A stretch of DNA of 64,000 nt, taken from Wenyingzhuangia gilva. GTDB taxonomy: Bacteria; Bacteroidota; Bacteroidia; Flavobacteriales; Flavobacteriaceae. The notes under the pieces are model-generated. The model was given only the letters and a program-made list of their open reading frames with translations, searched no databases and was not told the origin of the DNA. Position 1 is the first letter of the stretch, and each line of letters begins with the position of its first letter. Positions 7,820-38,085 of the stretch are shown one piece after another. The stretch is taken from positions 124,001-188,000 of the forward strand of contig NZ_JAUMIT010000003.1 in NCBI RefSeq assembly GCF_030519655.1. The letters run 5' to 3'. The position numbers were made by a program, and so were the translations under genes.

Positions 7820-8902
7820 TTATCCTTTGTAAAAAGGCAATTTTACCACTTTGGCTTTTATTTGTTTTTTTCTAACCTCGATGTAAATTTCATCACCAAT
7901 TTTACTATTCTCAGTAGTTACATAACCTAATCCAATAGCTTTGTTTAAACTAGGAGACATGGTTCCAGAAGTAACAATTCCAATTTGATTTCCATCAGCA
8001 TCTACTATAGGATAATCATGTCTGGCAATTCCTTTATCAACAATTTCAAATCCTACTAATTTTTTAGCAAGTCCATTTTCTTTTTGAGCCAAGATACTTT
8101 CTTTGTTGATGAAATCTTTGTTGAATTTAGTCACCCAACCCAAACCAGCTTCAATAGGAGAGGTAGTGTCGTTGATATCATTTCCATACAAACAATATCC
8201 CATTTCTAAACGTAAAGTATCACGAGCAGCCAATCCAATAGGTTTGATCCCGAATTCTTTTCCAGCTTCAAACACTTTTTCCCAAACTTGAGCTACTTCA
8301 TCATTTTTACAATAAATTTCAAAACCACCTGCACCAGTGTATCCTGTAGCAGAAATAATAACGTGTTCTATACCTGCAAAATCACCAACCACAAATTTGT
8401 AAAAAGGAATGGAAGCCAAATCAACAGACGTTAAACTCTGTAAAGCTTCGGTAGTTTTAGGACCTTGAATGGCCAATAAAGAATAAACATCAGATAGATT
8501 TTTCATTGCCACATTTAGGTCGTTATGTTTTTCTATCCAATTCCAATCTTTTTCAATATTAGAAGCATTTACAACTAAAAGGTATAATTCTTCTTTTATA
8601 CGGTAAATTAATAAATCATCTACAATTCCTCCTTCTTCATTTGGCATACAAGCGTATTGGGCATCACCAATAGCCAATTTACTTGCATCGTTCGAGCAGA
8701 CTTTCTGAATCAAAGCCAAAGCATTTGGACCTTCTAATAAAAATTCTCCCATGTGAGAAACATCAAAAACACCAACGGCTGTTCTAACTGTTTCGTGTTC
8801 TGCTTTAACTCCTTCGTATTGAACAGGCATGTTAAATCCTGCAAATGGAACCATTTTAGCTCCTAGTTGTTCGTGTATGTGTGTAAGTGCTGTATTTTTC
8901 AT
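7820..8902 (-). CDS. gcvT: Aminomethyltransferase (glycine cleavage system T protein)
   Basis: About 360 aa from the preferred start [14 protein letters not shown] (8902); an upstream in-frame ATG at 8926 adds eight residues unlike the family. It transfers the methylamine-derived one-carbon unit from lipoyl-GcvH to tetrahydrofolate. Family motifs: [57 protein letters not shown], and a C-terminal barrel with [16 protein letters not shown]. Other gcv genes are not nearby, which is common. It lies just downstream of the terminator at 8938-8960, so it has its own promoter. Confidence 0.95.
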
Positions 8903-8937
8903 TGAATGGATTATAATAGTTGACAAAAATAAATAAA

Positions 8938-8960
8938 AAAATCCCCAATAAGGGGATTTT
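8938..8960 (-). terminator. Terminator of the small ORF upstream of gcvT
   Basis: AAAATCCCC (8938-8946) pairs with GGGGATTTT (8952-8960), 5-base loop, and continues into T residues on the minus strand. It lies 29 bases past the end of the 117-aa ORF, which supports that ORF being a transcribed gene. Confidence 0.82.
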
Positions 8961-8988
8961 CATGTGGTGTATGTGCACAGAATATGGA

Positions 8989-9342
8989 TTATAATGGGCT
9001 ATCTAACCAGTTTAGGAATTTTAGGTAATACAAGGCTATAATGTTTTCTGTTGATTTTATTGTATTTGTAACAAGAGCGTGGCTATATGATGGGGTGTCA
9101 TCATCATTATTATTTTTAATATGCTCTTTTCTTTTAAAATAATTAATAATTGCTATTTCACGATCTAATAGTATAAGTGCTTTATTATAATTGCTTTGTT
9201 CAACAACAATATTATAATATATTTCGTTATAGTTATCAGTTTTTTTTATAATTGAAACAGATATGTTAGAAGCATTTTCAATAGTGTTTTTTATATGACA
9301 GGCATCTAAATTATTTTTGAATTTGTAGGGTATAGTTTTCAT
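8989..9342 (-). CDS. Hypothetical 117-aa protein
   Basis: Not recognised. 117 aa, no signal peptide or membrane segment, rich in Asn, Ile and Tyr, with an acidic NNNDDD stretch near residue 80. The first 65 residues (two short segments, the second ending NKALILLDREI) faintly recall DUF2007-type proteins, but this is weak. A clear terminator follows its stop, and it is divergent from the exopolysaccharide operon, so it may share regulation with it. It could still be a fast-evolving orphan. Confidence 0.5.
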   Translation of the reverse strand: MKTIPYKFKNNLDACHIKNTIENASNISVSIIKKTDNYNEIYYNIVVEQSNYNKALILLDREIAIINYFKRKEHIKNNNDDDTPSYSHALVTNTIKSTENIIALYYLKFLNWLDSPL

Positions 9343-9777
9343 AGCATTTTATGTTTAGCATAGCAATTCTAATTTAGTAAAAAATAATTTAAAAACATTT
9401 TTTTTTTCAATTATTTTAGGTTATCATTTTACTATATAAAATCATTATAGTCTTTAAATTCTGAAGACAGTTAAATATATCGAGTTTTAAAACATATCTA
9501 AATCTTATTGATATAGTTTTTGATTAACAAGGTCTAATCAAAAACGTTAGACTTTTTTTTCTTGAATATGGTTTGTTTTTTATCTCAAGACCCCCTTATT
9601 TTATTTACACTAATATTCTTTTTATTAACAAATGTTTAGTGTTTTTTTGTTGTGATTAGACTAGTTTTGCATAACAATTGTTAAGAATAATAGATTTACC
9701 TCACTTTTTGTGTGAAATATTTATTATTTCTGCAATATAGGTTGATAAGTATTTAAGATGTTTTACAGAAAAGATAC
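9343..9777 (+). other. Leader and intergenic region of the exopolysaccharide operon
   Basis: 435 bases with no ORF. It contains overlapping mutually exclusive hairpins at 9516-9560 (separate entry), a perfect palindrome AACAATTGTT (9673-9682), and a consensus -7 box TAGTTTTG (9662-9669) without a matching -33 TTG at the usual distance. The -7 box lies 108 bases before the first gene. The region between the operon and the divergent small ORF is the likely control point for the whole operon. Confidence 0.55.
9516..9560 (+). promoter_or_regulatory. Possible transcription attenuator (terminator and competing hairpin)
   Basis: GTCTAA (9532-9537) pairs with TTAGAC (9547-9552) and is followed by eight T residues (9553-9560): a standard intrinsic terminator. 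A second perfect 11-bp helix, GTTTTTGATTA (9516-9526) with TAATCAAAAAC (9535-9545), uses the same bases as the terminator's left arm, so the two cannot form together. That is the geometry of an attenuator or antiterminator. No upstream promoter was identified with confidence, so the element could instead end an unannotated short RNA. Confidence 0.5.
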
Positions 9778-10986
9778 ATGGATTTTATAAACTGGTTATA
9801 TTCTTTAAAACTCACTATAGGAAGCTTTCCTTTTATAATACAAGTCTCTATAGTATTTATATGTTTAAGTTTGTTTATGTCTGTTTTTTTGGTTATTTAC
9901 TTAACAATAATTAGAAATACAAATAAAATAAAAGAAAAGCTACAGGATAATATCGCTCCAAAGGTTAGTCAGCTCTTTATGGAAATTATTCACAATAATT
10001 ATCTTGAGAAAGAACAAGAGGTTAAAGAAAAGTTTGAAGAAATTATTGATTCTGACCATAAAAAAGTAAGAAAAAACAAAAAGTATAAACACGATTTAGC
10101 AATTGAAAGCTTAATAAAAATTCGTCAAAATTATAAAGAAGAGTCTGATAGGTATTCGTTAATTATTAGAGCATTAAATATAGAAAAATACATAGGAACT
10201 AAATTTTCTAAACTTACATATGGTGCTAAGAAAAAGGCTATATTAGAACTAGCAGAATTAGGATTGTCCTCATCAGATTCTAGAGTGCTTTCATATACCT
10301 ACAGTTCAAACAATGAAATTCAAACAGAAGCAAGATTATCATATCTAAGTTTAAGTCGTAACGACCCGTATCGTTTTTTTGATGAAATCAAAGGAGAAAT
10401 GTCTAGTTGGAGTCAAATAAAGCTAATGAATTTACTTATAGAACAATCTAATACTGAAGGTTTGCCGAATTTTGGTAAGTGGATTGGGTATTCCAAAAAT
10501 GATTCATTAGTAATTTTTCTCTTAAAAGCAGCTACTTATTTTGATCAAAAAAAAGCGATAGGAACCATTAGGGAGAAAATAAGAAGTGATAATCATATAT
10601 TAAGGAGTGAAGTTATTACAGCTCTTGGTAAACTTAAAGATTTTGAAATTGAAGATCATTTAAAAAATACTTATCAAAACGAATCCGATCTTTGTCAGGT
10701 ATCAATTATTAAAGCTATTGGTTATCTTGGTAGTGGTAAATCTTTAGAATTTTTAAAACAAAGCTTTTATGAAGCTACCAGTTTGGATATTAAAAAAGTG
10801 ATTGCTACGGTTATTTTTGATTATGATACCGATGGTAAAATGTTGTTTTTTGAAATGAAATCAAAAATAGAAAACAAAGTAGATTTCAGCCAAAAGCCTC
10901 TAGAAATAAACAGTTATAAAGAAAATTTATATTTTAATTTACAGTTGTTTAAGCATATAGAAAATGATTTAATTTTATACAAATAA
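9778..10986 (+). CDS. Membrane-anchored HEAT-repeat protein of the exopolysaccharide operon
   Basis: 402 aa. A hydrophobic segment at about residues 18-46 anchors it; a charged linker (about 50-125) and then helical HEAT-like repeats follow, clearest at about 260-350 (SEVITALGKLKDFE, VSIIKAIGYLGSG). The soluble part is probably cytoplasmic by the charge after the membrane segment. HEAT repeats bind proteins, so it may be a scaffold or regulator for the synthase encoded one base downstream. No enzymatic motif was seen. First gene of a five-gene operon. The family is recognised only at repeat level. Confidence 0.75.
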   Translation: MDFINWLYSLKLTIGSFPFIIQVSIVFICLSLFMSVFLVIYLTIIRNTNKIKEKLQDNIAPKVSQLFMEIIHNNYLEKEQEVKEKFEEIIDSDHKKVRKNKKYKHDLAIESLIKIRQNYKEESDRYSLIIRALNIEKYIGTKFSKLTYGAKKKAILELAELGLSSSDSRVLSYTYSSNNEIQTEARLSYLSLSRNDPYRFFDEIKGEMSSWSQIKLMNLLIEQSNTEGLPNFGKWIGYSKNDSLVIFLLKAATYFDQKKAIGTIREKIRSDNHILRSEVITALGKLKDFEIEDHLKNTYQNESDLCQVSIIKAIGYLGSGKSLEFLKQSFYEATSLDIKKVIATVIFDYDTDGKMLFFEMKSKIENKVDFSQKPLEINSYKENLYFNLQLFKHIENDLILYK

Positions 10987-10987
10987 A

Positions 10988-12397
10988 ATGTTAGAAAGTA
11001 TTACATATTACTACGAGTATTTTATTTTTTACTATGCTTCTTCAATGATTTTTAGTTATCTATTCTTAGGTACTATTTCAATAATTAATTTAATAAAGTA
11101 TAAGAGTTATAATTCAGATAAGGATGATGATGTCTTAATGAAATCTCCTTTGGTACCAGGAATTTCTGTAATAGCTCCTGCATACAATGAAGAAAAAACG
11201 ATTATTGAAAATGTAAAGTCCTTACTAACCTTAGAATATCCACTTTTTGAAGTGATTATTGTAAATGATGGTAGTAAAGATAAAACATTAGATAAACTGA
11301 TAGATGAATTTGAACTTATAGAGGTCGACTTTTTGTATTTAGAAAAAATAAAAACAAAACCCTTTAAACGAATTTTTAAGTCTACAAACCCACAGTATTC
11401 TATTTTAACCGTAGTAGATAAAGAGAATGGAGGAACAAAAGCTGATGCTTCTAACGCTGGAATTAATGCATCCGTTTTTCCATATTTTTTATGTACTGAT
11501 GTTGATTGTGTATTAAGTAGGCAAACTTTGTTAAAAATGATAAAACCTTTTTTAAATACAGAGGGAAAAGTTATTGCTGTTGGGTCTACTCTTAGGATGT
11601 TAAATGGTTGCGAGGTGAAGAATGGGGTGATTACTCGGGTAAAACCTCCAAAAAGACTAATTCCTTGTTTTCAAGAATTAGAATACATTAGAGGATATTT
11701 ATTAAGTAAAATGGGTTGGTCGTTTATTAATTCAGTACCAAACGTATCTGGCGGTTTAGGACTTTTTGATAAAGAAGTGGTTATAAAGTCAGGTGGTTAT
11801 TCAGGTGATTCCCATGCAGAGGATATGGATATGACAACTAAAATGGCATGTTACATGATGGATAATAATCTTAAATATAGAGTTGTATACATTCCAGTCT
11901 CGTGTTGTTGGACAGAAGGACCAACTACTGTTAAGGTATTAGGCAGACAAAGAACAAGATGGGGAGCTGGTTTGGCTCAAATATTTAAAGTACATCGTAA
12001 AGTACTGTTTAATAGAAAATATAAAAAATTAGGATTAATTACTTTTCCCTACATTTTTATATTCGAATTTTTAGCTCCAATTATAGAGTTTGTAGGGGTC
12101 TTGTTTTTTATTTATTTAGCAATTATGAATAAAATTAACTGGAGCATGGCTTATATCATAATGTTATATTCTTACACCTTTGCAATTTTTATAACAACAC
12201 TTGTTATTATTCAAGACCATATAGTATTTCATCATTATAAAAGAACCAGAGAAGTTTTTCGGTTGGTTTTAATGGGGTTTTTAGAACCGCTTTTATATCA
12301 TCCTTTAATTGTTTTTTTTGCAATAAAAGGATATTTTAACTTTTATAAAGGAAAAGAGTTAAAATGGGGAACAATGACAAGAACAGGAGTTAATTAA
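10988..12397 (+). CDS. Processive family 2 glycosyltransferase (exopolysaccharide synthase)
   Basis: 469 aa. An N-terminal membrane helix (about 14-36) precedes a GT2 domain (about 55-330) with all four signature elements: VNDGSKD (near 92), the TDVD motif (near 170), AEDMDM (near 277) and QRTRW (near 320). Three further hydrophobic segments lie at about 350-445. D,D,D,QxxRW with flanking helices is the pattern of synthases that polymerise and export a sugar chain through the inner membrane, such as BcsA, PgaC and hyaluronan synthase. No PilZ domain is visible. The sugar cannot be read from the sequence. One base follows the HEAT gene and four precede the TPR/barrel gene. Confidence 0.92.
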   Translation: MLESITYYYEYFIFYYASSMIFSYLFLGTISIINLIKYKSYNSDKDDDVLMKSPLVPGISVIAPAYNEEKTIIENVKSLLTLEYPLFEVIIVNDGSKDKTLDKLIDEFELIEVDFLYLEKIKTKPFKRIFKSTNPQYSILTVVDKENGGTKADASNAGINASVFPYFLCTDVDCVLSRQTLLKMIKPFLNTEGKVIAVGSTLRMLNGCEVKNGVITRVKPPKRLIPCFQELEYIRGYLLSKMGWSFINSVPNVSGGLGLFDKEVVIKSGGYSGDSHAEDMDMTTKMACYMMDNNLKYRVVYIPVSCCWTEGPTTVKVLGRQRTRWGAGLAQIFKVHRKVLFNRKYKKLGLITFPYIFIFEFLAPIIEFVGVLFFIYLAIMNKINWSMAYIIMLYSYTFAIFITTLVIIQDHIVFHHYKRTREVFRLVLMGFLEPLLYHPLIVFFAIKGYFNFYKGKELKWGTMTRTGVN

Positions 12398-12401
12398 TAA
12401 T

Positions 12402-15287
12402 TTGTATATGAAAATAAGTTTACGTACATGTTTGTTTTTCTTGCTGTTTGGAGTAAATGTAAATGTTTTTTCTCAATTCTTAGGAATAGAAAATCCTTAT
12501 TTTAAAGCAGCTAAACAAGCTGGTGTAGAAGGAGATTTTAGAAAATCAGCTGACTTATGTCTTCAGGGATTGAAAAAAAGTCCCTCTGACAATGACCTAA
12601 GGCAGCAGTTAGGAAAAAGTTATATGCAGTTAAAAGAGTTAGATAGTGCTCGTTTCTTTTTATCTAAAGTTGTAAATGAGGATGAAGATAATATACCTGC
12701 TAGACAATATTTAGTAAATGTAGAATATCAAAGTAAAAGATATTCTAGTGCTATATGTTATGTTAATGAATTATTGGAAAAGAAACCCTATACTAAAGAA
12801 CTTTGGCTAAAAAAAATATCGATATATAAAGAAATTGGAAATTATGGAGAAATTAAAAGATCCATTAAAAGATTAAGAGATATTTTTCCAAATGATACGG
12901 TAGTTGAAAAACAGTATAATTTTATAATGAGTCAGGAGGGATTTAAAGTTGCTAAAACAGGAAACGCTGATGAGGCTAAAAAGATTTATTTAAATATTTT
13001 AGAAGAATCTCCTGATGATAAAAATATATATATAAGTTTGATTAATCTAGAGACCAATCAAGGATCCTTAAACTCCGCATTAGAGTATGCAGAAAGAGGA
13101 TTGAAATATTACCCTAATGATTTAGAATTAATCAAAAAGAAAATAGGGATTTTAGAGGCTTTAAAAAGATATGATGTTGCCATAAGTTATTTAAAATCTA
13201 AAAATAACGATGTTCCTAAAGATTTTTTTAATAAGATTGAAAGATATTTAGTATCTGAAGCGGCTAGGTTTTATGAAAATACAGATCCATATATACTGCA
13301 TCAAAAATCTTATGCTTTAGATAGAAATAGAAATTCGTATCATTATTTGTTAAATAAATCAATAGAAAGAGGGTATTATAATGAATCCTTGAAACTAATA
13401 GAGCAAGGACTTTTAAGATATCCAAACGATAAAGATTTATTAGTAAAACAAATGTTTATCTATAAAAAACAAAATAATATTTCTAAATATTATGAGTCAG
13501 TTTATACTTTATACGAAAGGTATCCAGAAGATTATGATATTAGACAAGAGTATGCATCTGTTTTATTGTCAGAAGCAAAAGAATATACCTCACAAAAACA
13601 GTATCAGGCAGCATTAGATAATTATTTTATCTTACTTAAATTTTCGGAGTTTTCTGAAATCGCAAATAATAATATTTTTGTGGTATATACTTTACAAAAT
13701 AACACTACAGGAGCATTAAGTCAAATTGATGCAATGATTGAAAGCGAACCTGAAAAAAAAATAAATCTAGTTAAGAAAGCTGAATTACTAAAAGATATTA
13801 AAGATTTTGATGCGGCTTTAAGTATTGTAAATAGTTTGATTTTAGAATTTCCTGAGGAAAAAAAGTATAAAACACAATATGTATATTATTCTGATTTATA
13901 CATGAAGGATTTAATAACTGATGAATTATACTATAAAGCCCTTCCTGTAGCAGATAAAAGTTTAGAAGTTGATAGAACCAATAAGTTAACATATAATTAT
14001 GCTATTAATGCTTCTTCAGCAATGAAAAAGTATGATAAGATGTTGGTTTATACTGATAGTGCAGTTTATCATTATCCTGATGATATTGATTTAAAGTTAA
14101 AGAGAATAGCAGCATATTCTAATCTAAAAAATCATCAAAAAGCAACGGAACTTTTGGAGGAATTGGAAAATAAATATCCACAAGACATAAGAGTGAAAGG
14201 TGTTTTAGTAGAAGAAAGGTATAAGCTAGCGACCAATGCTGAAAAAAATGAAGACTATGACACGGCCAATACTCTTTATAATTCTATTTTATTACTAGAT
14301 TCTTTAAATATTCCCACCTATCAAAGATTGGTAAATTTATCTATCAATCAAAAAGATTATACAAATGCAATGGTATATGTAGATAGAGCTTTAGAAATTG
14401 ACCCCAATCCTGAGCAAAAATTCTTTTTATATAAAAAAGGAGTTGTTTATGAAATGACTGAAGATTTTGAAAAAGCTTATGAGTATCAAAAGATGAAAGA
14501 AGATGTAGATTTAAATGATCATTTAGATTATTTGTTAAGTAAAAAAATGAAGAACATACTAGGAATAAATTATTTAAAAGTTTACTCAGGTCAAGAAAGT
14601 TTTACTTCTGCTGTTGCAGGAATTTACTATCAAAGAATTTTAAAAAAGAATACTTATGGTTTACGTCTTAATTATGCATCAAAAGAAAGTGATGGTGTAG
14701 GTTTACAACTACAAGGAGAATGGTCTCATAAATTTTCTTCTACATTTTACACACAGTTAGATGCTTATATAGGAAATCTTTATTTTCCGAAATTTAAAAT
14801 ATCAGGTACTGCATACAAATATTTAAAGAATGATTGGGAGGTAGGTTTAGGTGTTGGATTGACCAAGGTTCCTACAGGAAAAGAATTTTTTAATGTTCAA
14901 GGAATCTTGTCAAAAGATATCGGTGATTTTTGGTTAAATGCTAGATTAAATGTTTTATTTAGTGAAGGAGCTGTATACAACAACTGGTTTGGTCAAGCTA
15001 GATATAACATTAATGGTAATGGTGATTATTTTGTAGCCATGGCTTCAACGGGTAATGCACCTCAAGAAGATAGAGCAACTAATTTTCAAATAAATACTTT
15101 TTTAACGTATACCAACTCTATGGTTGGTGCCGGATATAGATGGAATCATAAACATAAGTACACTTATGGAATTCAAGGGAATTGGTATAATTTTTATATA
15201 CCAGGTACTACAAATAATGGTTTACCTGTTCCAAGCTCTAGGGTAGATCAATATCATTTGTTATTTGTCATCCAAACTAAATTTTAA
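12402..15287 (+). CDS. TPR outer-membrane protein with C-terminal YaiO-type beta-barrel
   Basis: 961 aa. Signal peptide ends about NVFSQ. Residues about 30-680 are TPR-like helical repeats, seen as repeated tyrosine-rich pairs such as ALEYAERGLKYYPND and ESLKLIEQGLLRYPND. From about 690 the sequence becomes alternating beta strands (YYQRILKKNTYGLRLNY, WEVGLGVGLTKVP) and ends in Phe, like the YaiO outer-membrane barrel family. This periplasmic TPR plus porin arrangement parallels PgaA and BcsC, the exit pores for poly-GlcNAc and cellulose. It is cotranscribed with the GT2 synthase. A second ATG six bases in may be the true start. Confidence 0.85.
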   Translation: MYMKISLRTCLFFLLFGVNVNVFSQFLGIENPYFKAAKQAGVEGDFRKSADLCLQGLKKSPSDNDLRQQLGKSYMQLKELDSARFFLSKVVNEDEDNIPARQYLVNVEYQSKRYSSAICYVNELLEKKPYTKELWLKKISIYKEIGNYGEIKRSIKRLRDIFPNDTVVEKQYNFIMSQEGFKVAKTGNADEAKKIYLNILEESPDDKNIYISLINLETNQGSLNSALEYAERGLKYYPNDLELIKKKIGILEALKRYDVAISYLKSKNNDVPKDFFNKIERYLVSEAARFYENTDPYILHQKSYALDRNRNSYHYLLNKSIERGYYNESLKLIEQGLLRYPNDKDLLVKQMFIYKKQNNISKYYESVYTLYERYPEDYDIRQEYASVLLSEAKEYTSQKQYQAALDNYFILLKFSEFSEIANNNIFVVYTLQNNTTGALSQIDAMIESEPEKKINLVKKAELLKDIKDFDAALSIVNSLILEFPEEKKYKTQYVYYSDLYMKDLITDELYYKALPVADKSLEVDRTNKLTYNYAINASSAMKKYDKMLVYTDSAVYHYPDDIDLKLKRIAAYSNLKNHQKATELLEELENKYPQDIRVKGVLVEERYKLATNAEKNEDYDTANTLYNSILLLDSLNIPTYQRLVNLSINQKDYTNAMVYVDRALEIDPNPEQKFFLYKKGVVYEMTEDFEKAYEYQKMKEDVDLNDHLDYLLSKKMKNILGINYLKVYSGQESFTSAVAGIYYQRILKKNTYGLRLNYASKESDGVGLQLQGEWSHKFSSTFYTQLDAYIGNLYFPKFKISGTAYKYLKNDWEVGLGVGLTKVPTGKEFFNVQGILSKDIGDFWLNARLNVLFSEGAVYNNWFGQARYNINGNGDYFVAMASTGNAPQEDRATNFQINTFLTYTNSMVGAGYRWNHKHKYTYGIQGNWYNFYIPGTTNNGLPVPSSRVDQYHLLFVIQTKF

Positions 15288-15300
15288 TTAAGGACTCTTT

Positions 15301-17409
15301 ATGAAAAAACTATTTGTTATTTCATTTTTATTCTGTTGTTTTTTGGGGTTTTCTCAACAAGAAAATATACTTTTTTATAAAAAAGGAGTAACCAAGCCCA
15401 TTATTTATGTTACAAGTGTTAGTAATAACTTAATTACTCCAATTAGTAATTTTCAAAAACAAATTAGGAAAGCTTTAGGTTTAAGAATTTTATTCTCACC
15501 TAAGTATGATCCAAATGCAATTAATATAAGTTTTAATTTTGTTAACAGTGAAACTTTAAAAAACAAAGAGTTCGAGGTTTATTTAGATGGAAAAGAATTA
15601 ATGATAAAAGCTAGTTCAAACACAAATTTTGAAAAGGCCATAAGATATATTATTTCAGATTTATTAGAAGTAAAACAAGAAAATACCATTATATATTTAA
15701 AAAATAATAAGATTGCTCAAAGACCTTTACAGACCAGCTTTGATTATAGAGAAGTTTATTTTTCTCAAAACTTCAATAAAAATATTAGAGCTGAGTATAA
15801 TACGCAATATTTAGAATTAGAATGGGGATTATGGGGTCATAATATTATTAAATGGGTAAAAAATGAAAAAGTTACAGATAATTTGTATGCCTTAGTAAAT
15901 GGGAAGAGAAATCACGATCAATTATGTTTTTCGAGTTCTGAATTAAAAAACATCATTCATAAAAATGTAAAAAGAATATCAGAAGAAGATGCTTCCTTAA
16001 AACGATTTATGATTGCTCCAAATGATAATAGTTTGGTTTGTCAGTGTAATTTGTGTTTGGCTAAAGGAAATACTAAAAAGAATGCAAGTCCCGCTGTATT
16101 TAGTTTAATTTCTAAAATGGCAATGCAATATCCTTCTAAAACATTTTGGTCTTTAGGATATGTTACAACTAAAACACCACCAAATTTTAAGCTTCCTAAT
16201 AATGTAGGTGTTTTGTTAAGTACTATTGATTGTCAGGAATCTTTACCATTAACTAATACTTTAAAAGGCAAGAGTTTTTTAAACCAAATATCAGATTGGA
16301 ATACTAAAATTAAGAATATATATGTATGGGATTATGTAGTGAATTTTGATAACTATATGGATTTCTACCCAATATTTAATTCAACTAAAAAAAATCTACA
16401 AGCATATAAAGAAAATGGTGTCACAGGTGTTTTTTTTAATGGTAGTGGTTATGATTACTCAATATTAGAAGAAGTAAAATATCATGTTTTAGCCTCCCTT
16501 TTAAGTGATGTTGAAAGTTCAGTAGATGATTTAATTTTAGAAGGAACTAAAAAATATTATCCCCAAATAACTGATGAAATATATGAGTATTTAAAATTTA
16601 TTGAAGAGAAATCACAAACAAAGCAAGGTATTTACAGCAGTATTAATGAAGCTAAAAAAAGATATCTTACTTTAAATAAATTAAAAGAACTAGAAGAAGC
16701 TATTAATAAAGTTCCTTCAAATTTAAGGTTAAATCAATTTAAAATAGGTGTCTTGTTTTTAGAACTTGAATTAATGAGGGTTAACGGTTTAAACAATGAA
16801 GGATATGCTTTTTTAAATAATGATGAAATCAAACTTAATGTTAAAGTAGAATCTAACCTTAATCAATTAGGAAAGTTGCTAAAATTGAGTCAATTATATA
16901 AAATAAGTGAAAGAAATGAAACATTTTCTAATTATCTAGAGCAGTGGAAACAACTTTTAATTAAAATAAAAAGCAATCCTTCTTTTTATGATATTAACAT
17001 TTCTTCTGAAACTAAATTAGATGAGGATTATAATAATATTAATATTTTAAATGATGGAGCTTTTGGTTTTGAAGATTATAATAACAATTGGTTAGTCTTT
17101 AGTGGAGGTGAGTTGAGAATAAATATAAGCAGTCAGAAATGTGTTGATAATGTATTTCATAAAATTGAATTAAGCTTATTAAGTGATGCTAAGCATAAAA
17201 TCTTTTTGCCAAATAAAATTCAGCTTTTAAATGAGGAAAAAAAAGTAATTAAAGAAATCAGCCTAATAAATAAAGAAAATGCAAATCCTTTTATAAAAAA
17301 TATTGAGTTTTCTTTACCTTCATCTTATAGCAATAAATGTTTATACACCATAAAATTATTTAATGCCAACAAATCAATAGCCATTGATGAAATTAGATTT
17401 TTAAAATAA
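15301..17409 (+). CDS. DUF4838-type secreted glycosidase-like protein
   Basis: 702 aa with a signal peptide (ends about GFSQ). An N-terminal alpha/beta region (about 35-120) is followed by a TIM-barrel-like region with LEWGLWGHN, CFSSSEL, CQCNLC and VWDYVVNFDNY, the pattern of DUF4838 proteins, relatives of alpha-glucuronidases. A beta-rich C-terminal part begins about residue 555. In the operon it sits where PgaB (deacetylase/hydrolase) or BcsZ would, so periplasmic trimming or editing of the nascent polymer is the natural inference. The CxCxxC cluster may bind metal. Catalytic residues were not identified. Confidence 0.72.
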   Translation: MKKLFVISFLFCCFLGFSQQENILFYKKGVTKPIIYVTSVSNNLITPISNFQKQIRKALGLRILFSPKYDPNAINISFNFVNSETLKNKEFEVYLDGKELMIKASSNTNFEKAIRYIISDLLEVKQENTIIYLKNNKIAQRPLQTSFDYREVYFSQNFNKNIRAEYNTQYLELEWGLWGHNIIKWVKNEKVTDNLYALVNGKRNHDQLCFSSSELKNIIHKNVKRISEEDASLKRFMIAPNDNSLVCQCNLCLAKGNTKKNASPAVFSLISKMAMQYPSKTFWSLGYVTTKTPPNFKLPNNVGVLLSTIDCQESLPLTNTLKGKSFLNQISDWNTKIKNIYVWDYVVNFDNYMDFYPIFNSTKKNLQAYKENGVTGVFFNGSGYDYSILEEVKYHVLASLLSDVESSVDDLILEGTKKYYPQITDEIYEYLKFIEEKSQTKQGIYSSINEAKKRYLTLNKLKELEEAINKVPSNLRLNQFKIGVLFLELELMRVNGLNNEGYAFLNNDEIKLNVKVESNLNQLGKLLKLSQLYKISERNETFSNYLEQWKQLLIKIKSNPSFYDINISSETKLDEDYNNINILNDGAFGFEDYNNNWLVFSGGELRINISSQKCVDNVFHKIELSLLSDAKHKIFLPNKIQLLNEEKKVIKEISLINKENANPFIKNIEFSLPSSYSNKCLYTIKLFNANKSIAIDEIRFLK

Positions 17410-17927
17410 TGAATAGATATCTTATATATATATTATTTTTCTCTCTAGTTGCTTGTATAGGTGATCTTAGTAGAGATAAAGCTGTAGATTATTTAGAACA
17501 GACCTCTATGAGAATAGAGGATCCAGAGAGACATTATTTTCCTATTATTAGAGGAGCTATATTAAAAACGGCGTTTAAATTTTATAACACAGGAGATCAT
17601 CCTTTAGTACTTAAAGATGTTAATACTTCTTGTGGTTGTACAAATGTACAATATTCACCAGGTCTTATATCACCAGGCAGTTATGGTGAAATTTATATTG
17701 AATATAATAGTGGTAAAAATATAGGACATGTAGAGTTTTATATCGATGTATATGCAAATTTAGATACTGTATTTAAGAAAACAATTAAGTTTGATATTAA
17801 TGTGGTAACAGGTGCGGATTATACCAGAGATTATGAAGAAGTATATAATGAGTTTTTAAAAGGTCAGAATGCAGAATATAAAAAGAAGGGATATTATACT
17901 GAGTTAGATGGACAAGTAAAGTACTAG
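17409..17927 (+). CDS. DUF1573 lipoprotein
   Basis: 172 aa. Lipobox VAC at Cys16 makes it a lipoprotein. Residues about 45-150 form an immunoglobulin-like DUF1573 domain with the diagnostic TSCGCTNVQY. Its ATG overlaps the stop of the DUF4838 gene (TAATG), so the two are translationally coupled. DUF1573 function is unknown; the fold suggests protein or chaperone-like binding in the periplasm. Last gene of the exopolysaccharide operon, followed by a strong terminator. Confidence 0.8.
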   Translation: MNRYLIYILFFSLVACIGDLSRDKAVDYLEQTSMRIEDPERHYFPIIRGAILKTAFKFYNTGDHPLVLKDVNTSCGCTNVQYSPGLISPGSYGEIYIEYNSGKNIGHVEFYIDVYANLDTVFKKTIKFDINVVTGADYTRDYEEVYNEFLKGQNAEYKKKGYYTELDGQVKY

Positions 17928-17950
17928 TACAATAATAATTATATAACACA

Positions 17951-17980
17951 AAAAACCACTATCTAAGGATAGTGGTTTTT
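17951..17980. terminator. Bidirectional terminator, exopolysaccharide operon and thrC
   Basis: A 13-bp perfect stem, AAAAACCACTATC with GATAGTGGTTTTT, around a TAAG loop, between convergent operons. Confidence 0.92.
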
Positions 17981-18013
17981 TTATTAATAACTCTATTTTT
18001 TAAATTTAGAGAT

Positions 18014-19312
18014 TTAAGACTTTAAAAAATCTGTCAATCCTTTGTAATCTGAAATTTTAATAGAAACTTTAGGTTTGTCTATTACGGCTTTAATTTGCTC
18101 TGGTAATTCTATAGTTTCTGCAACTCCAGGATATAAAACATCCATAAATTTAACAGGGTGAGCAGTTTCTAAAAACAAACCTTGTGTGTTGGTTGCTGTT
18201 TTTAAATAATTTTTTAAAGCCAAGTAACCAATCGCTCCATGAGGTTCTGCTACATAATTGAACTTTTTATACAAATGCCCCATTGCTGCTGTAGCTTCAT
18301 CATCGGTATAAGAATATCCTTTTAGATTTTTACGCAGTTTCTCAACATCAAAATCGTGTAATTTTTCTATTCTGATAAAGTTGCTAGGAGCCCCAACATC
18401 CATTGCATTAGAAATGGTAGGGATGGTTTTTTTAGGTTCGTAAATTCCCGTTTCTAAATACGCAGGAACCACTCTGTTTACATTTGTACCTGTGATGAAT
18501 TCTTTGATAGGCAATCCTAATTTTTGAGCAATCATTCCTGCACAAATATTTCCAAAGTTTCCACTAGGGACAGAGAATACAATATCTTTTGATTTGTCTT
18601 TTAATTGTTTATAAGCAAAGAAAAAGTAGAATGCTTGTGGCAACCAACGAGCTACATTGATTGAGTTTGCGGAAGTTAACGTTCTGTGTTCTTTTAAAGA
18701 CTCATCTAAAAAAGCAGTTTTCACCATGTCTTGACAATCGTCAAAAGCACCGTCTACTTCTAAAGCAGTAATGTTTTGTCCCAAAGCAGTTAATTGCTTT
18801 TCTTGAACGTTAGATACTTTTCCGCTAGGGTATAAAATAACAACATTAACACCTTGAACTCCTAAGAAACCACTTGCAACAGCACCTCCAGTATCTCCAG
18901 AAGTAGCCACCAATACAGTGATGTCTTTATCGTTTTTTTCTTTTTTGTTAAAATATCCTAAACAACGAGCCATAAAGCGACCACCCACATCTTTAAATGC
19001 CATGGTTGGACCGTGAAACAATTCTAAAGAACCAATATTTTCTTCAATAGGAACTATAGGAAAATCAAAACACAATGTTTCTTCAACAATTTGTTTCAAG
19101 TCTTGTTCAGGAATTTCATCACCAACAAACTGTTTGATGATTTCGTATCCAATTTCACTATTGCTATAATTGTCTAAATTATCAATAAACTCTTTTGATA
19201 ACGGCGTAATACTTTCAGGAAAATATAAACCTCTGTCTGGAGCAATTCCGTTGACAACAGCGTCTCTAAAAGAGACTTCAGGAGCGTTTCCGTTTAAACT
19301 AAAATATTTCAT
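18014..19312 (-). CDS. thrC: Threonine synthase
   Basis: 432 aa PLP enzyme, last step of threonine synthesis (phosphohomoserine to threonine). Motifs: the N-terminal NGIAPDRGLYFPE typical of the long (bacterial) class, FHGPTMAFKDVGGRF with the PLP lysine, and the phosphate-binding VATSGDTGGAV and VPSGNFGN. Third gene of thrABC on the minus strand. The 85-base gap to thrB holds an imperfect inverted repeat. Confidence 0.96.
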   Translation of the reverse strand: MKYFSLNGNAPEVSFRDAVVNGIAPDRGLYFPESITPLSKEFIDNLDNYSNSEIGYEIIKQFVGDEIPEQDLKQIVEETLCFDFPIVPIEENIGSLELFHGPTMAFKDVGGRFMARCLGYFNKKEKNDKDITVLVATSGDTGGAVASGFLGVQGVNVVILYPSGKVSNVQEKQLTALGQNITALEVDGAFDDCQDMVKTAFLDESLKEHRTLTSANSINVARWLPQAFYFFFAYKQLKDKSKDIVFSVPSGNFGNICAGMIAQKLGLPIKEFITGTNVNRVVPAYLETGIYEPKKTIPTISNAMDVGAPSNFIRIEKLHDFDVEKLRKNLKGYSYTDDEATAAMGHLYKKFNYVAEPHGAIGYLALKNYLKTATNTQGLFLETAHPVKFMDVLYPGVAETIELPEQIKAVIDKPKVSIKISDYKGLTDFLKS

Positions 19313-24780: not shown

Positions 24781-24854
24781 GGTCTGGTAGTTCAGCTGGT
24801 TAGAATACCTGCCTGTCACGCAGGGGGTCGCGGGTTCGAGTCCCGTCCAGACCG
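24781..24854 (+). tRNA. tRNA-Asp (GTC), copy 1
   Basis: 74-nt cloverleaf, acceptor GGTCTGG with CCAGACC, anticodon loop CTGTCACG (GTC), T-arm GGTTCGAGTCC. Identical to the copy at 36197. An integrase remnant follows, as expected when a tRNA gene serves as an integration site. Confidence 0.97.
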
Positions 24855-24877
24855 CAAGAGAAACATTAAACTCTTAC

Positions 24878-27781: not shown

Positions 27782-30718
27782 ATGAAATACACTTTTTTAC
27801 TATTTGTTTCATTTAGTTTTGCTTTGTTTGCTCAAAACTCAAATGAAACCAAAAGTTCTATTGCAAAACCTTTAATAGCAAAGGATACTTTATCTCAAAA
27901 AATTTGGTTAGATAGCTTATTGTCTAAAATGACTTTAGATGAAAAAATAGGCCAGTTATTTATGGTGCAAGCCTATTCAAACAAAGATGAAAAACACAAA
28001 CAAGAAATCATCAACTTAATTGAGAAATATCATATTGGAGGATTGATTTTTATGCAAGGAAGTCCTGAAAAGCAAATTAATTTGTATAATGATTATCAAT
28101 CTAAAAGCAAAGTTCCTTTATTAATTGGTTTTGATGGTGAATGGGGATTGTCTATGCGAATTAAACCATCATTTGCTTATCCTTGGAACATGACACTGGG
28201 TGCAGTTCAAAATGATTCTTTAATATATCAGGTAGGAAAACAAATAGGTAACCATTGTAAAGAAGTTGGTGTACATATAAATTTCGCTCCAGTAGTTGAT
28301 ATCAATACAAATCCAAAAAATCCAATTATAGGAAATAGATCTTTTGGAGAAAATAGAGAGAATGTTACTCAAAAATCAATTGCATTTATCAATGGAATGC
28401 AAAGCGTTGGGGTCTTAGCAAATGCCAAACATTTTCCTGGACATGGTGATACTGCTTCAGATTCTCACAAAACATTACCTGTCGTTAATTTTGATATGAA
28501 AAGATTGGATAGTATTGAAATGTATCCATACAAACAATTGGCAAAATCTAATTTGGCAAGTGTCATGGTTGCTCATTTGGATGTACCAGCTTTAAAAACC
28601 GAAAAAGGTAGACCTACTTCTATTTCAAAAAAAGTAATTACTGATTTACTAAAAAATAAAATAGAATTTAAAGGATTGGTATTTACCGATGCTTTAAATA
28701 TGAATGGAGTTGCAAGTTATACTACTAGCGATCAGGTGGCTTTAGAAGCATTTAAAGCAGGAAATGATATGTTGTTAATTCCTGTAGATGTTGAAAAAGG
28801 AATAGCTACAATTCACAAAGCAATTACAGATAGTTTGATTTCCGAAAAAAGATTAGATAGTTCTGTAATAAAAGTTCTACAAGCTAAATATTGGGCAGGG
28901 TTAAATCAATTAGAATTGTTAAAAACAACCAACATTCAGCAAAGAATTCACACAGTAGAAGATGATTTATTATTTAAAAAAGTAGCAGAAAATGCCATTA
29001 CTTTGGTAAAAAACAATCAAGACTTTTTACCTTTAAAAAGATTAGACACTTTAAGCATCGCTTCTATTTCTTTAGGCGATGAAGGTAGTAGTGAATTCGT
29101 AAAAACAATTAACAAATACAAAGAAGCTACCATTGTTAAAGGAGTAGATCAAAATAATTTTAAAAACAAACTAGTAACCTATAACACGGTTATCATTGGA
29201 ATCCATAAATCAGATGCAAATCCTTGGAAATCTTATGAAATTTCTAACGCTGAGATACGTCTTATCAATGAAATTTCCAAAACCAAGACAGTAATATTAA
29301 CCGTATTTGCAAGTCCATATTCTTTATTAAAACTAAACGGATTTAAAAATATATCAAATATCATTGTTGCTTATCAGAACAATTCCGTTTTTCAATCTGT
29401 AGCAGCACAACAAATTTTTGGTGCTTTACCTTTTTTAGGAAAATTACCTGTTTCGGTTTCTAAACAACATAATGTTGGTAGTGGAATTGTTACAGAATCT
29501 ATCCATAGATTACAATATGGAACTCCTGAAGAAGTAGGAATGAATTCCCTAAAATTATCTAAAATAGATTCTATAGCGAATATTGTCATTTCTGAAAAAA
29601 TGTCTCCTGGTCTACAAGTATTGGTAGCTAAAAACAATAAAGTTGTTTTTGAAAAATCATATGGATATTATACTTATGACAAACATCAAAAAGTAAACAA
29701 TAACTCTTTATATGATTTGGCTTCTTTAACCAAAATACTGGGAGCCTTTCCTTTGTATCTAAAAGCCTTTGAAGAAGGTGTTTATCACTTAGATGATACT
29801 TTAGGAGATTTGTTACCTATGTATAAAGATAGTCCTTTAGGTAATTTATTGGTGATAGATATGTTTGCACATCAATCTGGTTTAAAAGCATGGATTCCTT
29901 TTTATTTAAAAACTTTAGATAGTGTATCTCATCAACCCATGAAAAAATGGTATCACCCAACTAAAGGTAATGGTTACAATGTTAAAGTAGCAGAAAATGT
30001 ATTTATGAAAGATGAATATATTGATAGTATTTATCAAACCATCAAAACAACCCCTCTTAGAGATAAAAGAGATTATTTGTATAGCGGTTTGCCTTTCTTG
30101 TTATTCAAAAAAATTTTAGAAAACCACTATCATAAATCTATGGATGTATTATTGGCTGAAAACTTCACCAATTCTTTAGGAGCTGATAAATTGCTATATA
30201 CCCCGTTAAACAAATACAAAAAAGATAGCATTGTTCCTTCTGAAGAAGACAATTATTATAGACACCAAAGACTGCAAGGAAATGTTCACGATATGGCTGC
30301 AGCTATGTTTGGTGGTGTTACAGGAAATGCAGGTCTTTTTGGAAATGCAAATGACATTGCTAAAATGATGCAATTATATTTAAATAGAGGAATTTATGGT
30401 AGTCATAAATATTTTAAACCTAACACCTTTAATAATTTTAACAAATCATACTTTAAAAACAGGGATAATAGAAGAGCACTAATTTTAGACAAACCATCTT
30501 TTGATTCAAAAGTTCTTAACACCTGTAATTGTGTTTCATCTAAAAGTTTTGGACACAGTGGTTTTACTGGTACTTTTGCTTGGGCTGATCCTGAAACAAA
30601 TCTTATATACATATTTCTATCTAATAGAACCTACCCTAGCATGGATAATAATTTATTAGGTAAAAAAGACATTAGAACCAATATTCAACAACTTATACAA
30701 GATGCAATCATTAAATAA
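27782..30718 (+). CDS. GH3 beta-N-acetylhexosaminidase fused to a serine-hydrolase (beta-lactamase-like) domain
   Basis: 978 aa. Signal peptide ends about LFAQ. GH3 catalytic domain (about 45-365) with the NagZ-type loop KHFPGHGDTASDSH, which supplies the His/Asp acid-base pair, and FTDALNMNGV with the nucleophile Asp. A GH3 C-terminal-like part (about 395-560) leads to a class C beta-lactamase/D-aminopeptidase-like domain (about 590-970) with SLTK (Ser-x-x-Lys) and a GHSGFTG box in place of KTG. Likely a periplasmic peptidoglycan-recycling enzyme combining glycosidase and peptidase or esterase functions. This fusion is known in Bacteroidetes. Confidence 0.9.
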   Translation: MKYTFLLFVSFSFALFAQNSNETKSSIAKPLIAKDTLSQKIWLDSLLSKMTLDEKIGQLFMVQAYSNKDEKHKQEIINLIEKYHIGGLIFMQGSPEKQINLYNDYQSKSKVPLLIGFDGEWGLSMRIKPSFAYPWNMTLGAVQNDSLIYQVGKQIGNHCKEVGVHINFAPVVDINTNPKNPIIGNRSFGENRENVTQKSIAFINGMQSVGVLANAKHFPGHGDTASDSHKTLPVVNFDMKRLDSIEMYPYKQLAKSNLASVMVAHLDVPALKTEKGRPTSISKKVITDLLKNKIEFKGLVFTDALNMNGVASYTTSDQVALEAFKAGNDMLLIPVDVEKGIATIHKAITDSLISEKRLDSSVIKVLQAKYWAGLNQLELLKTTNIQQRIHTVEDDLLFKKVAENAITLVKNNQDFLPLKRLDTLSIASISLGDEGSSEFVKTINKYKEATIVKGVDQNNFKNKLVTYNTVIIGIHKSDANPWKSYEISNAEIRLINEISKTKTVILTVFASPYSLLKLNGFKNISNIIVAYQNNSVFQSVAAQQIFGALPFLGKLPVSVSKQHNVGSGIVTESIHRLQYGTPEEVGMNSLKLSKIDSIANIVISEKMSPGLQVLVAKNNKVVFEKSYGYYTYDKHQKVNNNSLYDLASLTKILGAFPLYLKAFEEGVYHLDDTLGDLLPMYKDSPLGNLLVIDMFAHQSGLKAWIPFYLKTLDSVSHQPMKKWYHPTKGNGYNVKVAENVFMKDEYIDSIYQTIKTTPLRDKRDYLYSGLPFLLFKKILENHYHKSMDVLLAENFTNSLGADKLLYTPLNKYKKDSIVPSEEDNYYRHQRLQGNVHDMAAAMFGGVTGNAGLFGNANDIAKMMQLYLNRGIYGSHKYFKPNTFNNFNKSYFKNRDNRRALILDKPSFDSKVLNTCNCVSSKSFGHSGFTGTFAWADPETNLIYIFLSNRTYPSMDNNLLGKKDIRTNIQQLIQDAIIK

Positions 30719-31717: not shown

Positions 31718-31744
31718 TTGTTAAAGCTATAAACCTTATATTTG
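31718..31744 (+). promoter_or_regulatory. Promoter of the split methionine synthase operon
   Basis: TTG (31718-31720), 16-bp spacer, TATATTTG (31737-31744). The -7 box contains the TTG that would start the longest reading frame, so translation must start downstream, at ATG 31805. The leader is about 55 nt. GTCG (31748-31751) and CGAC (31780-31783) could pair, but no known SAM or cobalamin riboswitch fold was recognised. Confidence 0.7.
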
Positions 31745-31804
31745 CAAGTCGGAAATAAGGGTAAGGTATTTTTATGTTTACGACCCAGTAGCCAAACAAA
31801 ATCT

Positions 31805-32803
31805 ATGGCAAATATTAGAGAAGAACTTAAGAAAAGAATTTTAGTGTTAGATGGTGCTATGGGTACCATGATTCAACAATACAAATTTACAGAAGAAGAT
31901 TATAGAGGCGAACAATTTAAGGATTGGCATGTTTCTGTAAAAGGTAACAATGATATGTTATCTATTACTCAACCAAGTGCTATCAAAGAAATTCATGCAA
32001 AATACTTTGAAGCCGGAGCAGATATTGCTGAAACCAATACATTTTCTAGTACTACCATTGCAATGGCAGATTATGAAATGGAGAATTATGTATATCAACT
32101 AAATTATGAATCTGCAAAAATAGCCAAAGAAGTAGCAGATGAATTTACAGCAAAAGAACCTCATAAACCTCGTTTTGTGGCTGGTTCTATAGGACCTACC
32201 AACAGAACATTAAGTATGTCTCCAGATGTAAATGACCCAGGATATAGAGCTGTTACTTTTGATGAACTAAGAATTGCTTACAAACAACAAACAGAAGCTT
32301 TGTTAGATGGTGGTGTTGATGTTTTATTGGTAGAAACAGTTTTTGATACTTTAAATGCCAAAGCTGCTTTATTTGCAATTGAAGAAGTTAAAGCAGAAAG
32401 AGGAATTGATGTGCCTATTATGTTAAGCGGTACTATTACCGATGCGTCTGGTAGAACTTTATCTGGTCAAACAGCTGAAGCATTTTTAATTTCAGTATCT
32501 CACATTCCTTTGTTAACAGTTGGGTTAAATTGTGCTTTGGGAGCAGATGCATTAGTGCCTCATCTAGAGGCTATATCAAGCAATACTCAATTTGGAGTCT
32601 CAGCGCATCCAAATGCAGGTTTACCAAATGCTTTTGGAGAATATGATGAATCTCCTGCACAAATGGCCAAACAAATTCAAGGTTATTTTGATAAAAGTTT
32701 AATCAACATTATCGGTGGTTGTTGTGGAACCACTCCAGCACACATCAAAGCCATTGCAGATATTGCTGCATTAGCAGAGCCAAGAAAATTACAAGAAGCA
32801 TAA
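31805..32803 (+). CDS. metH: Homocysteine S-methyltransferase half of methionine synthase
   Basis: About 332 aa from MANIREELKKR; the longer frame from 31742 begins inside the promoter box and is rejected. It is the homocysteine- and zinc-binding barrel of MetH: DGAMGTMIQ, FVAGSIGPTNR, GLNCALGA and GGCCGTTPAHI supply the three zinc cysteines. The cobalamin-dependent half is a separate gene 79 bases downstream; this split is usual in flavobacteria. Cytosolic; makes methionine from homocysteine and methyl-cobalamin bound to the partner. Confidence 0.94.
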   Translation: MANIREELKKRILVLDGAMGTMIQQYKFTEEDYRGEQFKDWHVSVKGNNDMLSITQPSAIKEIHAKYFEAGADIAETNTFSSTTIAMADYEMENYVYQLNYESAKIAKEVADEFTAKEPHKPRFVAGSIGPTNRTLSMSPDVNDPGYRAVTFDELRIAYKQQTEALLDGGVDVLLVETVFDTLNAKAALFAIEEVKAERGIDVPIMLSGTITDASGRTLSGQTAEAFLISVSHIPLLTVGLNCALGADALVPHLEAISSNTQFGVSAHPNAGLPNAFGEYDESPAQMAKQIQGYFDKSLINIIGGCCGTTPAHIKAIADIAALAEPRKLQEA

Positions 32804-32841
32804 AGTTGGTTTTTAAGTTATAAAAACTAAAATTGATAAGC

Positions 32842-32877
32842 ACTAATGGCTAAAGACCAATAGTCAAAAGCTAATTA
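32842..32877. repeat. Word-like intergenic repeat between the metH halves
   Basis: AATGGCTAAAGACCAATAG and related words resemble the inverted repeat between thrA and thrB (20325-20384). Same low-complexity vocabulary (GGCTAAAG, AGCTAATT) in another operon gap. Confidence 0.55.
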
Positions 32878-32882
32878 CAATT

Positions 32883-36196: not shown

Positions 36197-36270
36197 GGTC
36201 TGGTAGTTCAGCTGGTTAGAATACCTGCCTGTCACGCAGGGGGTCGCGGGTTCGAGTCCCGTCCAGACCG
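36197..36270 (+). tRNA. tRNA-Asp (GTC), copy 2
   Basis: 74-nt cloverleaf identical to the gene at 24781-24854, anticodon GTC. Followed by the same terminator, palindrome and integrase. Confidence 0.97.
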
Positions 36271-36293
36271 CAAGAGAAACATTAAACTCTTAC

Positions 36294-36326
36294 AAAACCT
36301 TATAAACTTTATGTTTATAAGGTTTT
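36294..36326 (+). terminator. Terminator of tRNA-Asp copy 2
   Basis: Same 14-bp stem as copy 1, AAAACCTTATAAAC with its complement around TTTAT. Confidence 0.92.
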
Positions 36327-36372
36327 TTTATTTATGCTGATTTGAATACAAACCAAAATATTTTATATATTA

Positions 36373-36426
36373 GGTAAGTATTTCGGTTAGTATAATTTTA
36401 AGCTTAAAATTACTAACCTCTTTACC
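36373..36426. promoter_or_regulatory. Long nested palindrome between tRNA-Asp and integrase, island 2
   Basis: Core 36385-36418 is identical to the core at 24969-25002, with the same outer GGTAA/TTACC pair. Retention in both islands while the integrase diverged argues for a functional DNA or RNA element rather than chance. Confidence 0.6.
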
Positions 36427-36491
36427 TTGAAAAGATACTATTAGTTTGATTTTGACTTTCGTCCTATGTTTCACCACAAAAGACGATTACT

Positions 36492-37661: not shown

Positions 37662-37887
37662 ATCATTTAAAACAAGGCTTAAAGTGCTGTATAGTACATT
37701 TTTTGTTGTAATTCCATCATGCTAAAGATATTTCAGTAGCTTAGAATAGCTTTATTTAGCAATAACCAAAACCTTCTATTAAAGATTATTTAATTATATT
37801 TTTTTACATATAAATATATAGCTTTGAATTAAATTATATTCATTTACATATAATTTGTATCAATAGTATATCTAAAAACATATAATC
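37662..37887 (+). promoter_or_regulatory. Upstream region of the hip operon with three ACATATAA repeats
   Basis: ACATATAA occurs at 37806-37813, 37846-37853 and 37878-37885, the last ending two bases before the hipB start. Regularly placed direct repeats before an antitoxin gene are typical operators for HipB-like autoregulation. The rest of the 226 bases has no ORF. Confidence 0.5.
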
Positions 37888-38085
37888 ATGCTTGCTGAAT
37901 TTGTCAAAGAGAAACGTAAAGAAGTCGGGTTAACTCAAGAAGAGTTTGCGGATAGAGTAGGGGTGGCTTTAACGGTAATTCGTAAAATAGAACAAGGGAA
38001 AACAAATTTAAATCTAGACAAAGTAAACCTTGTTTTGGCTATGTTTGGACATGAACTAACGCCAACCAAAATAACAAACTCATGA
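37888..38085 (+). CDS. HipB-like antitoxin, HTH (Xre/Y4mF type)
   Basis: 65 aa single-domain Cro/C1-type helix-turn-helix: GLTQEEFADRVGVALTVIRKIEQGK. This is the DNA-binding antitoxin of split HipA systems; it represses its own operon and binds the toxin. Its stop overlaps the next start (ATGA), so it is translationally coupled to the hipS-like gene. It appears intact. Confidence 0.85.
   Translation: MLAEFVKEKRKEVGLTQEEFADRVGVALTVIRKIEQGKTNLNLDKVNLVLAMFGHELTPTKITNS

Follow-up and report, generated by a model that had tools for sequence, protein, structure and literature searches.

Introduction

Known bacterial systems of synthase-dependent exopolysaccharide production include PgaABCD, which makes poly-beta-1,6-N-acetylglucosamine in E. 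coli, and the cellulose system BcsABZC. In Proteobacteria, the Pga, Bcs, Alg and Pel systems are controlled by cyclic di-GMP (c-di-GMP). Little is known of the matrix polysaccharides of Bacteroidota, a phylum that includes marine particle colonisers as well as inhabitants of the rumen and gut. Here we report the analysis of a five-gene operon of Wenyingzhuangia gilva (Flavobacteriaceae), which lies within a stretch of 64,000 nucleotides of contig NZ_JAUMIT010000003.1 (hereafter, the window), in a genome that lacks the c-di-GMP parts by which such systems are found and explained elsewhere. The operon encodes a HEAT-repeat membrane protein, a family 2 glycosyltransferase (GT2), a protein with TPR repeats and a YaiO-type barrel, a DUF4838 protein and a DUF1573 lipoprotein. 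An earlier note on this DNA, made from the sequence alone, had read it as a distinct polymer export and editing system of flavobacteria. We conclude that the locus probably encodes a synthase-dependent exopolysaccharide system that works independently of c-di-GMP and includes its own hydrolase. The arrangement is found across Bacteroidota and is apparently undescribed so far; judged from titles and abstracts, the open-access literature searched contained no description of this locus. Because the core is conserved and its parts are clearly defined, the matter becomes a testable question, namely which polymer is made and which switch controls it.

Results

Organization of the operon

All five open reading frames (ORFs) lie on the same strand, with intergenic gaps of 1, 4, 13 and -1 bases (Table 1). 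The near-gapless order and the five protein families named in the earlier note were borne out by ORF positions and profile searches, where every protein matched its Pfam family. The HEAT_2 match was marginal (28.1 vs 27.7 bits) and is firmer in relatives; the others were PF00535/PF13641 in the synthase, TPR_19 and YaiO PF19413 in the third protein (YaiO, 60.1 bits vs a curated cut-off of 23.9), PF16126 in the DUF4838 protein (158.6 vs 26.6 bits) and PF07610 in the DUF1573 protein (69.5 vs 26.1 bits). For the third gene, the ATG at 12408 is a more probable start than the TTG at 12402. Predicted signal peptides and the lipobox suggest that the last three products leave the cytoplasm, the final one as a lipoprotein. 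The operon genes have 25-30% GC, compared with 34% for the flanking gcvT and thrC. A Bacteroidota promoter pattern had zero matches upstream of the operon, and only chance-level numbers in the window.

Table 1. Features of the operon and its downstream boundary, in window coordinates
Feature	Coordinates	Strand	Remarks
HEAT-repeat membrane-anchored protein, 402 aa	9778..10986	+	Pfam HEAT_2; N-terminal transmembrane (TM) segment at residues 23-41, then a basic stretch
Family 2 glycosyltransferase (GT2), 469 aa	10988..12397	+	D, DxD, ED, QxxRW; ~4 predicted TM segments; processive-type synthase
TPR protein with C-terminal YaiO beta-barrel, 961 aa	12402..15287	+	Pfam; signal peptide
DUF4838 (GH163-type) secreted glycoside-hydrolase-like protein, 702 aa	15301..17409	+	Pfam; signal peptide
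DUF1573 Ig-like lipoprotein, 172 aa	17409..17927	+	Pfam; lipobox LVAC; family motif RHYYP, here RHYFP
33-nt inverted repeat between the operon and convergent thrC	17931..18000	.	likely two-way terminator, a putative function

Conservation across Bacteroidota

Scanning named genomes with the GT2 alignment yielded 80 loci, and with relatives added, 109 GT2 proteins from 99 loci were laid out; loci L120, L123, L125 and L128, in which a longer antisense ORF had masked the GT2 in ORF calling, were excluded from the counts. The five-gene order recurs in Flavobacteriia, Sphingobacteriia and Bacteroidia, and without DUF1573 also in Chitinophagia. This recurrence across the phylum is far beyond chance; the order is thus conserved in many genomes and not unique to that of the window. 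The suggested restriction to flavobacteria does not hold. By title, all 80 scan loci are from Bacteroidota except one Beijerinckiaceae record (Alphaproteobacteria; L105), which carries a typical Chitinophaga-type locus and probably reflects contamination of that assembly by a foreign contig.

The HEAT gene adjoins the GT2 gene at nearly all of the 99 loci. The commonest layout, HEAT-GT2-TPR/YaiO-DUF4838-DUF1573 as in the window, was found at 22 loci, one of them counted twice (L033 is L092). Further layouts, in which REC denotes a receiver gene, are REC-HEAT-GT2-sulfatase-YaiO, REC-YaiO-HEAT-GT2, HEAT-GT2-YaiO-DUF4838-REC and the Chitinophaga-type REC-HEAT-GT2-GT2-YaiO-DUF4838, with two synthases; sulfatases were assigned by length and Pfam. 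The HEAT-GT2 pair is therefore the constant core of a larger family, and its variable modules are a single-domain response regulator, a membrane sulfatase-like protein, DUF4838 and DUF1573. At eight Chitinophaga-type loci (L101, L102, L103, L105, L108, L109, L110 and L112), the two tandem GT2 genes ahead of the TPR/barrel gene belong to separate clades, and such a pair might make a two-sugar repeat. In a rumen Bacteroidales locus (L118:17218-21397), HEAT-GT2-YaiO-DUF4838-DUF1573 is immediately followed by two receiver genes and a gene for a large TPR-like protein; this locus is exceptional in uniting the receiver and DUF1573 types.

Loci seeded on GT2 are a biased sample, and a draw of 296 Bacteroidota genomes not seeded on the operon gives the fairer count. 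The GT2 core was present in 70 of these genomes and DUF4838 of the operon profile in 19, nine of which, including the eight top-scoring ones, have it within ~6 kb of the GT2 gene. In the genus of Polaribacter vadi, a DUF4838 gene occurs in 17 of 78 genomes, and all 13 loci read have the five genes in order.

Presence and absence at one genomic site

The operon sits between gcvT and thrC in the window, in genome G004 and in G209, the flanking genes of the latter being assigned by length and strand. In sister genomes of the same genus as the window, gcvT and thrC are separated by 70-80 bases (G001, G003 and G006) or ~610 bases (G002), and in the window (7820-19312) the interval is filled by the operon plus a DUF4026-like ORF (8989-9342). 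The five genes are either all present or all absent at this site, as a single block, which supports one common function. Loss in the sister genomes is as possible as gain, because G209, which is assigned to another genus, has the same site.

GT2 synthase and its phylogeny

The D, D, D, QxxRW motifs ascribed to the synthase are all present: D94, D171xD173, E278-D279 and Q321xxR324W325 are invariant in a 12-sequence alignment, and all catalytic motifs are intact in 106 of the 109 relatives. The closest NCBIfam equivalog was PgaC_IcaA TIGR03937 (124 bits; its cut-off of 422.3 was not reached), and the family profile matched E. coli PgaC with 123 bits (25.7% identity, E 4e-27). A processive-type GT2, with these motifs and TM segments, and an outer-membrane TPR-barrel protein are thus encoded in one operon, as is general for synthase-dependent exopolysaccharide systems.

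In a tree built by a quick method (LG+G4), whose deep forks are partly unresolved, nearly all DUF4838-linked synthases fall into a branch of 69 rows, apart from the sulfatase-type synthases; its support in the SH-like approximate likelihood-ratio test (SH-aLRT) is 100. The five-gene type forms a nested branch of 29 rows (SH-aLRT 100), with DUF4838 beside 28, DUF1573 beside 24 and a receiver beside 2; in several rows without DUF1573, a contig end cuts the locus. Outside this branch, a receiver domain lies near 69 of 80 synthases. From this phylogeny, the five-gene form is best described as one clade of a larger REC/HEAT/GT2/YaiO family, in which the receiver seems ancestral and to have been lost as DUF1573 arrived.

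Two loci in the genus of the window, L048:6537-13815 (G006) and L049:7059-14308 (G002), have the order REC-HEAT-GT2-hybrid histidine kinase (~1450 aa) with no YaiO gene nearby. Their GT2 has Asn at all three catalytic Asp positions and a broken QxxRW (K..S/N W) while retaining a long ORF; this suggests an inactive synthase that has been co-opted for signalling.

Proposed HEAT partner and regulation

An N-terminal hydrophobic segment is present in 97 of 99 HEAT relatives, and the HEAT domain is predicted to be cytosolic, given the single N-terminal TM segment with its basic flank. We propose that the protein is a partner or regulator of the GT2. A domain search of the genome of the window found zero GGDEF and PilZ domains, while positive controls responded, so that c-di-GMP control in its usual form is absent. 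In the wider family, receivers and hybrid kinases are frequent beside HEAT-GT2. The receivers are true Response_reg domains by Pfam; among 33 aligned, the phospho-acceptor Asp and the Lys are invariant, and the acidic pocket and Ser/Thr are conserved. The constant HEAT partner and the frequency of receivers and hybrid kinases make a phosphorelay the best candidate for control of the wider family.

Putative TPR/YaiO exporter

The barrel (residues 690-961) was modelled with 14 strands at a predicted local distance difference test score (pLDDT) of 90.6. The nearest solved barrels in VIA-align were TodX of the FadL family (6z38; Z 21.8, 2.5 Å, 223 residues aligned), CymA (4d5b; Z 20.4, 2.8 Å, 234) and OmpG (2x9k; Z 19.9, 3.0 Å, 229), all of which are 14-strand channels. 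CymA passes cyclodextrins, so that a 14-strand pore can be wide enough for a glycan. The barrels of PgaA and BcsC have 16 strands. The solved PgaA structure (4Y25) falls outside the top 50 VIA-align rows and ranks 17 in Foldseek with a TM-score of 0.54, a result compatible with kinship. The barrel family profile scores 31.8 bits to YaiO and 0.4 to PgaA, and the PgaA equivalog TIGR03939 matches the TPR part only (42.2 bits vs a cut-off of 366.65). The claim that the operon follows the logic of Pga and Bcs thus stands for the overall plan and fails for exporter homology; among named proteins, the exporter is closest to E. coli YaiO, which is uncharacterised and encoded two genes from the GT2 YaiP.

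DUF4838 protein

The DUF4838 model (pLDDT 90.7) begins with an N-terminal domain, followed by a part that resembles a TIM barrel (~147-505); a helical part and a beta domain at the C terminus complete it. Its fold neighbours are the glycoside hydrolase (GH) family GH20 enzyme BT0459 (6q63; Z 17.2, root-mean-square deviation 10.1, 494 aligned), a GH115 enzyme (4zmh; Z 15.9, 4.8 Å, 458 aligned), a GH67 enzyme (1l8n; Z 15.6, 5.8 Å, 424 aligned) and human O-GlcNAcase of GH84 (5un9; Z 15.1, 4.3 Å, 289 aligned). The sequence profile matched BT0459 at both ends (6e-19), and this match came by profile only, as phmmer with the single sequence gave none in the PDB. The model is consistent with a hexosaminidase- or glucuronidase-like TIM barrel. 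Invariant residues include W178-G179-H180, D242, C247/C249/C252 and W343-D344-Y345. D242 follows a barrel strand within an [NDE]-D pair, and our guess from the model is that the position of this pair roughly corresponds to that of the catalytic pair in GH20 and GH84 enzymes. Of the proposed editing function, the DUF4838 family was confirmed and a hydrolase-like fold predicted, while editing itself is suggested by the fold and position of this protein.

Other features of the window

A tRNA-Asp, a tyrosine recombinase gene (36492-37661) and a HipA_C gene (38409-39335) at 36197-39335 form a possible tRNA-linked mobile element; a further tRNA-Asp lies at 24781-24855. The window also encodes a glycoside hydrolase family 3 protein fused to a beta-lactamase-type domain (27782-30718) and a methionine synthase split into two genes, for homocysteine methyltransferase and for the pterin/B12/activation part (31742-35579).

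Discussion

Proposed mechanism and alternatives

In the mechanism that we propose, the GT2 would polymerise a nucleotide-sugar and extrude the chain through the inner membrane, with the membrane-anchored cytosolic HEAT protein as its constant partner, probably a regulatory or assembly subunit in place of PgaD or BcsA-PilZ. The stand-alone receiver next to HEAT in most relatives suggests a phosphorelay input that was lost in the five-gene branch. The periplasmic TPR stretch would pass the chain on to the outer-membrane YaiO barrel with its 14 strands. Like the PgaB hydrolase domain or BcsZ, secreted DUF4838 may cut or trim the chain; by family and fold it would most likely act at hexosamine linkages, which makes N-acetylhexosamine a probable constituent of the polymer. 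DUF1573, a lipoprotein, may be an Ig-like accessory, perhaps tethering the hydrolase, the porin or the product.

Published expression data bear on this mechanism. In co-culture of Polaribacter dokdonensis MED152 with Micromonas commoda, MED152_03905 (GT2) was up 8.8x and MED152_03915 (DUF4838, GH163) 18.5x, and both were classed, with N-acetylglucosamine (GlcNAc) catabolic genes, as enriched carbohydrate-active enzymes outside polysaccharide utilization loci (PMC9870897). The locus tags leave one gene between the two, as the operon order predicts. Because this spacing fits and every locus read in the genus of P. vadi has the five genes, we infer that the two belong to the same operon and are probable orthologs, and that their induction stems from polymer production close to algae. 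These data would then have another reading, with an apparent operon of this type induced by an alga and grouped with catabolic enzymes despite its biosynthetic layout.

Several points weigh against the proposed exopolysaccharide system. No member of the family has a known polymer, phenotype or enzyme activity. The receiver is absent from the five-gene clade of the window itself, which confines the suggestion of phosphorelay input to the wider family. For MED152, the operon order is taken from loci read in other members of the genus. Finally, GH67 and GH115 glucuronidases score about equal to hexosaminidases as neighbours of the DUF4838 model, and a GH fold gives no specificity.

The last point feeds the strongest alternative, in which the same machine makes a neutral or uronic-acid glycan, with DUF4838 acting as a hydrolase of glucuronidase-like or other type. 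Its appeal is increased by the GT2 profile, which also touches chondroitin, hyaluronan and cellulose synthases; against it, the nearest GT2 equivalog is the poly-N-acetylglucosamine (PNAG) synthase, and GH163, the CAZy label of the P. dokdonensis DUF4838 protein, includes a characterised enzyme that acts on N-glycan antennae, cutting GlcNAc-beta-1,2-Man. We regard this alternative as unlikely. Less probable still is a role of the GT2 and associated proteins in making a surface glycan attached to lipid or protein, as opposed to a free exported polymer; the YaiO barrel and TPR would then serve envelope assembly. GT2 families are broad and the literature found describes no YaiO substrate, but QxxRW with C-terminal TM segments is typical of processive synthases, and an exporter and a periplasmic hydrolase share the operon. 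A catabolic locus in which DUF4838 and its neighbours degrade algal N-acetylglucosamine polymers, as implied by the co-culture paper from induction alongside GlcNAc catabolic genes (PMC9870897), is very improbable, since the operon has no SusC/SusD, transporter or other hydrolase by Pfam, and in relatives DUF4838 is found together with an outer-membrane barrel protein and a GT2 of the processive type.

Beyond the exopolysaccharide system proposed for this locus, we tentatively raise the possibility that HEAT-GT2 is the core of a phylum-wide synthase class, in which a receiver/HEAT pair fed by hybrid histidine kinases would replace c-di-GMP as the post-translational switch, and swappable modules, a GH163-type hydrolase or a membrane sulfatase-family transferase, would set polymer editing.

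Comparison with known systems

The operon shares with PgaABCD a PgaC-related GT2, a TPR and barrel exporter, a secreted hydrolase in the operon and a membrane partner of the synthase. It differs in that its modelled 14-strand barrel is of the YaiO type, none of the five proteins has a polysaccharide deacetylase domain by Pfam (the single one in the genome is on another contig), the HEAT partner is unrelated to PgaD by profile, the HEAT and DUF4838 profiles match neither PgaB nor PgaD, all Pga equivalog cut-offs are missed and the genome lacks c-di-GMP domains. BcsABZC likewise has a GT2 with D, D, D, QxxRW and an exporter and endo-hydrolase (BcsZ) in one operon, whereas the operon of the window lacks PilZ, the Pfam hits of its five proteins include none to BcsB, and its hydrolase is of another family. 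The earlier note was therefore correct in finding no PgaB-type deacetylase, PgaD, BcsB or PilZ here. By these profile comparisons, the locus is neither a Pga nor a Bcs system, each of the defining parts compared being absent or below its cut-off, though its GT2 is related to PgaC. The yaiS-yaiP-yaiX-yaiO locus of E. coli also combines a GT2 with a YaiO barrel, and the profiles match YaiP (57.6 bits) and YaiO (31.8 bits); in contrast, E. coli YaiO has 257 aa, and that locus has a putative deacetylase and a broken acyltransferase, and no HEAT, DUF4838 or DUF1573.

The REC-HEAT-GT2-sulfatase-YaiO loci share the HEAT-GT2 core and the YaiO barrel, but belong to a separate GT2 branch in which a five-TM sulfatase-family protein, resembling membrane phosphoethanolamine or phosphoglycerol transferases, replaces DUF4838. 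The genome of the window has such a paralogous system (G000:C23:369113; GT2 45% identical) in the order REC-HEAT-GT2-sulfatase, with a YaiO gene on the opposite strand; close by are genes for a 1160-aa protein that contains a receiver and for a 386-aa protein that no Pfam family matches (L032, G000:C23:361000-378500). GT2 and sulfatase domains are fused in one protein in G040, G053 and G156, which argues that both modules act on one product. The sulfatase branch probably decorates its polymer, whereas the branch of the window probably cuts it.

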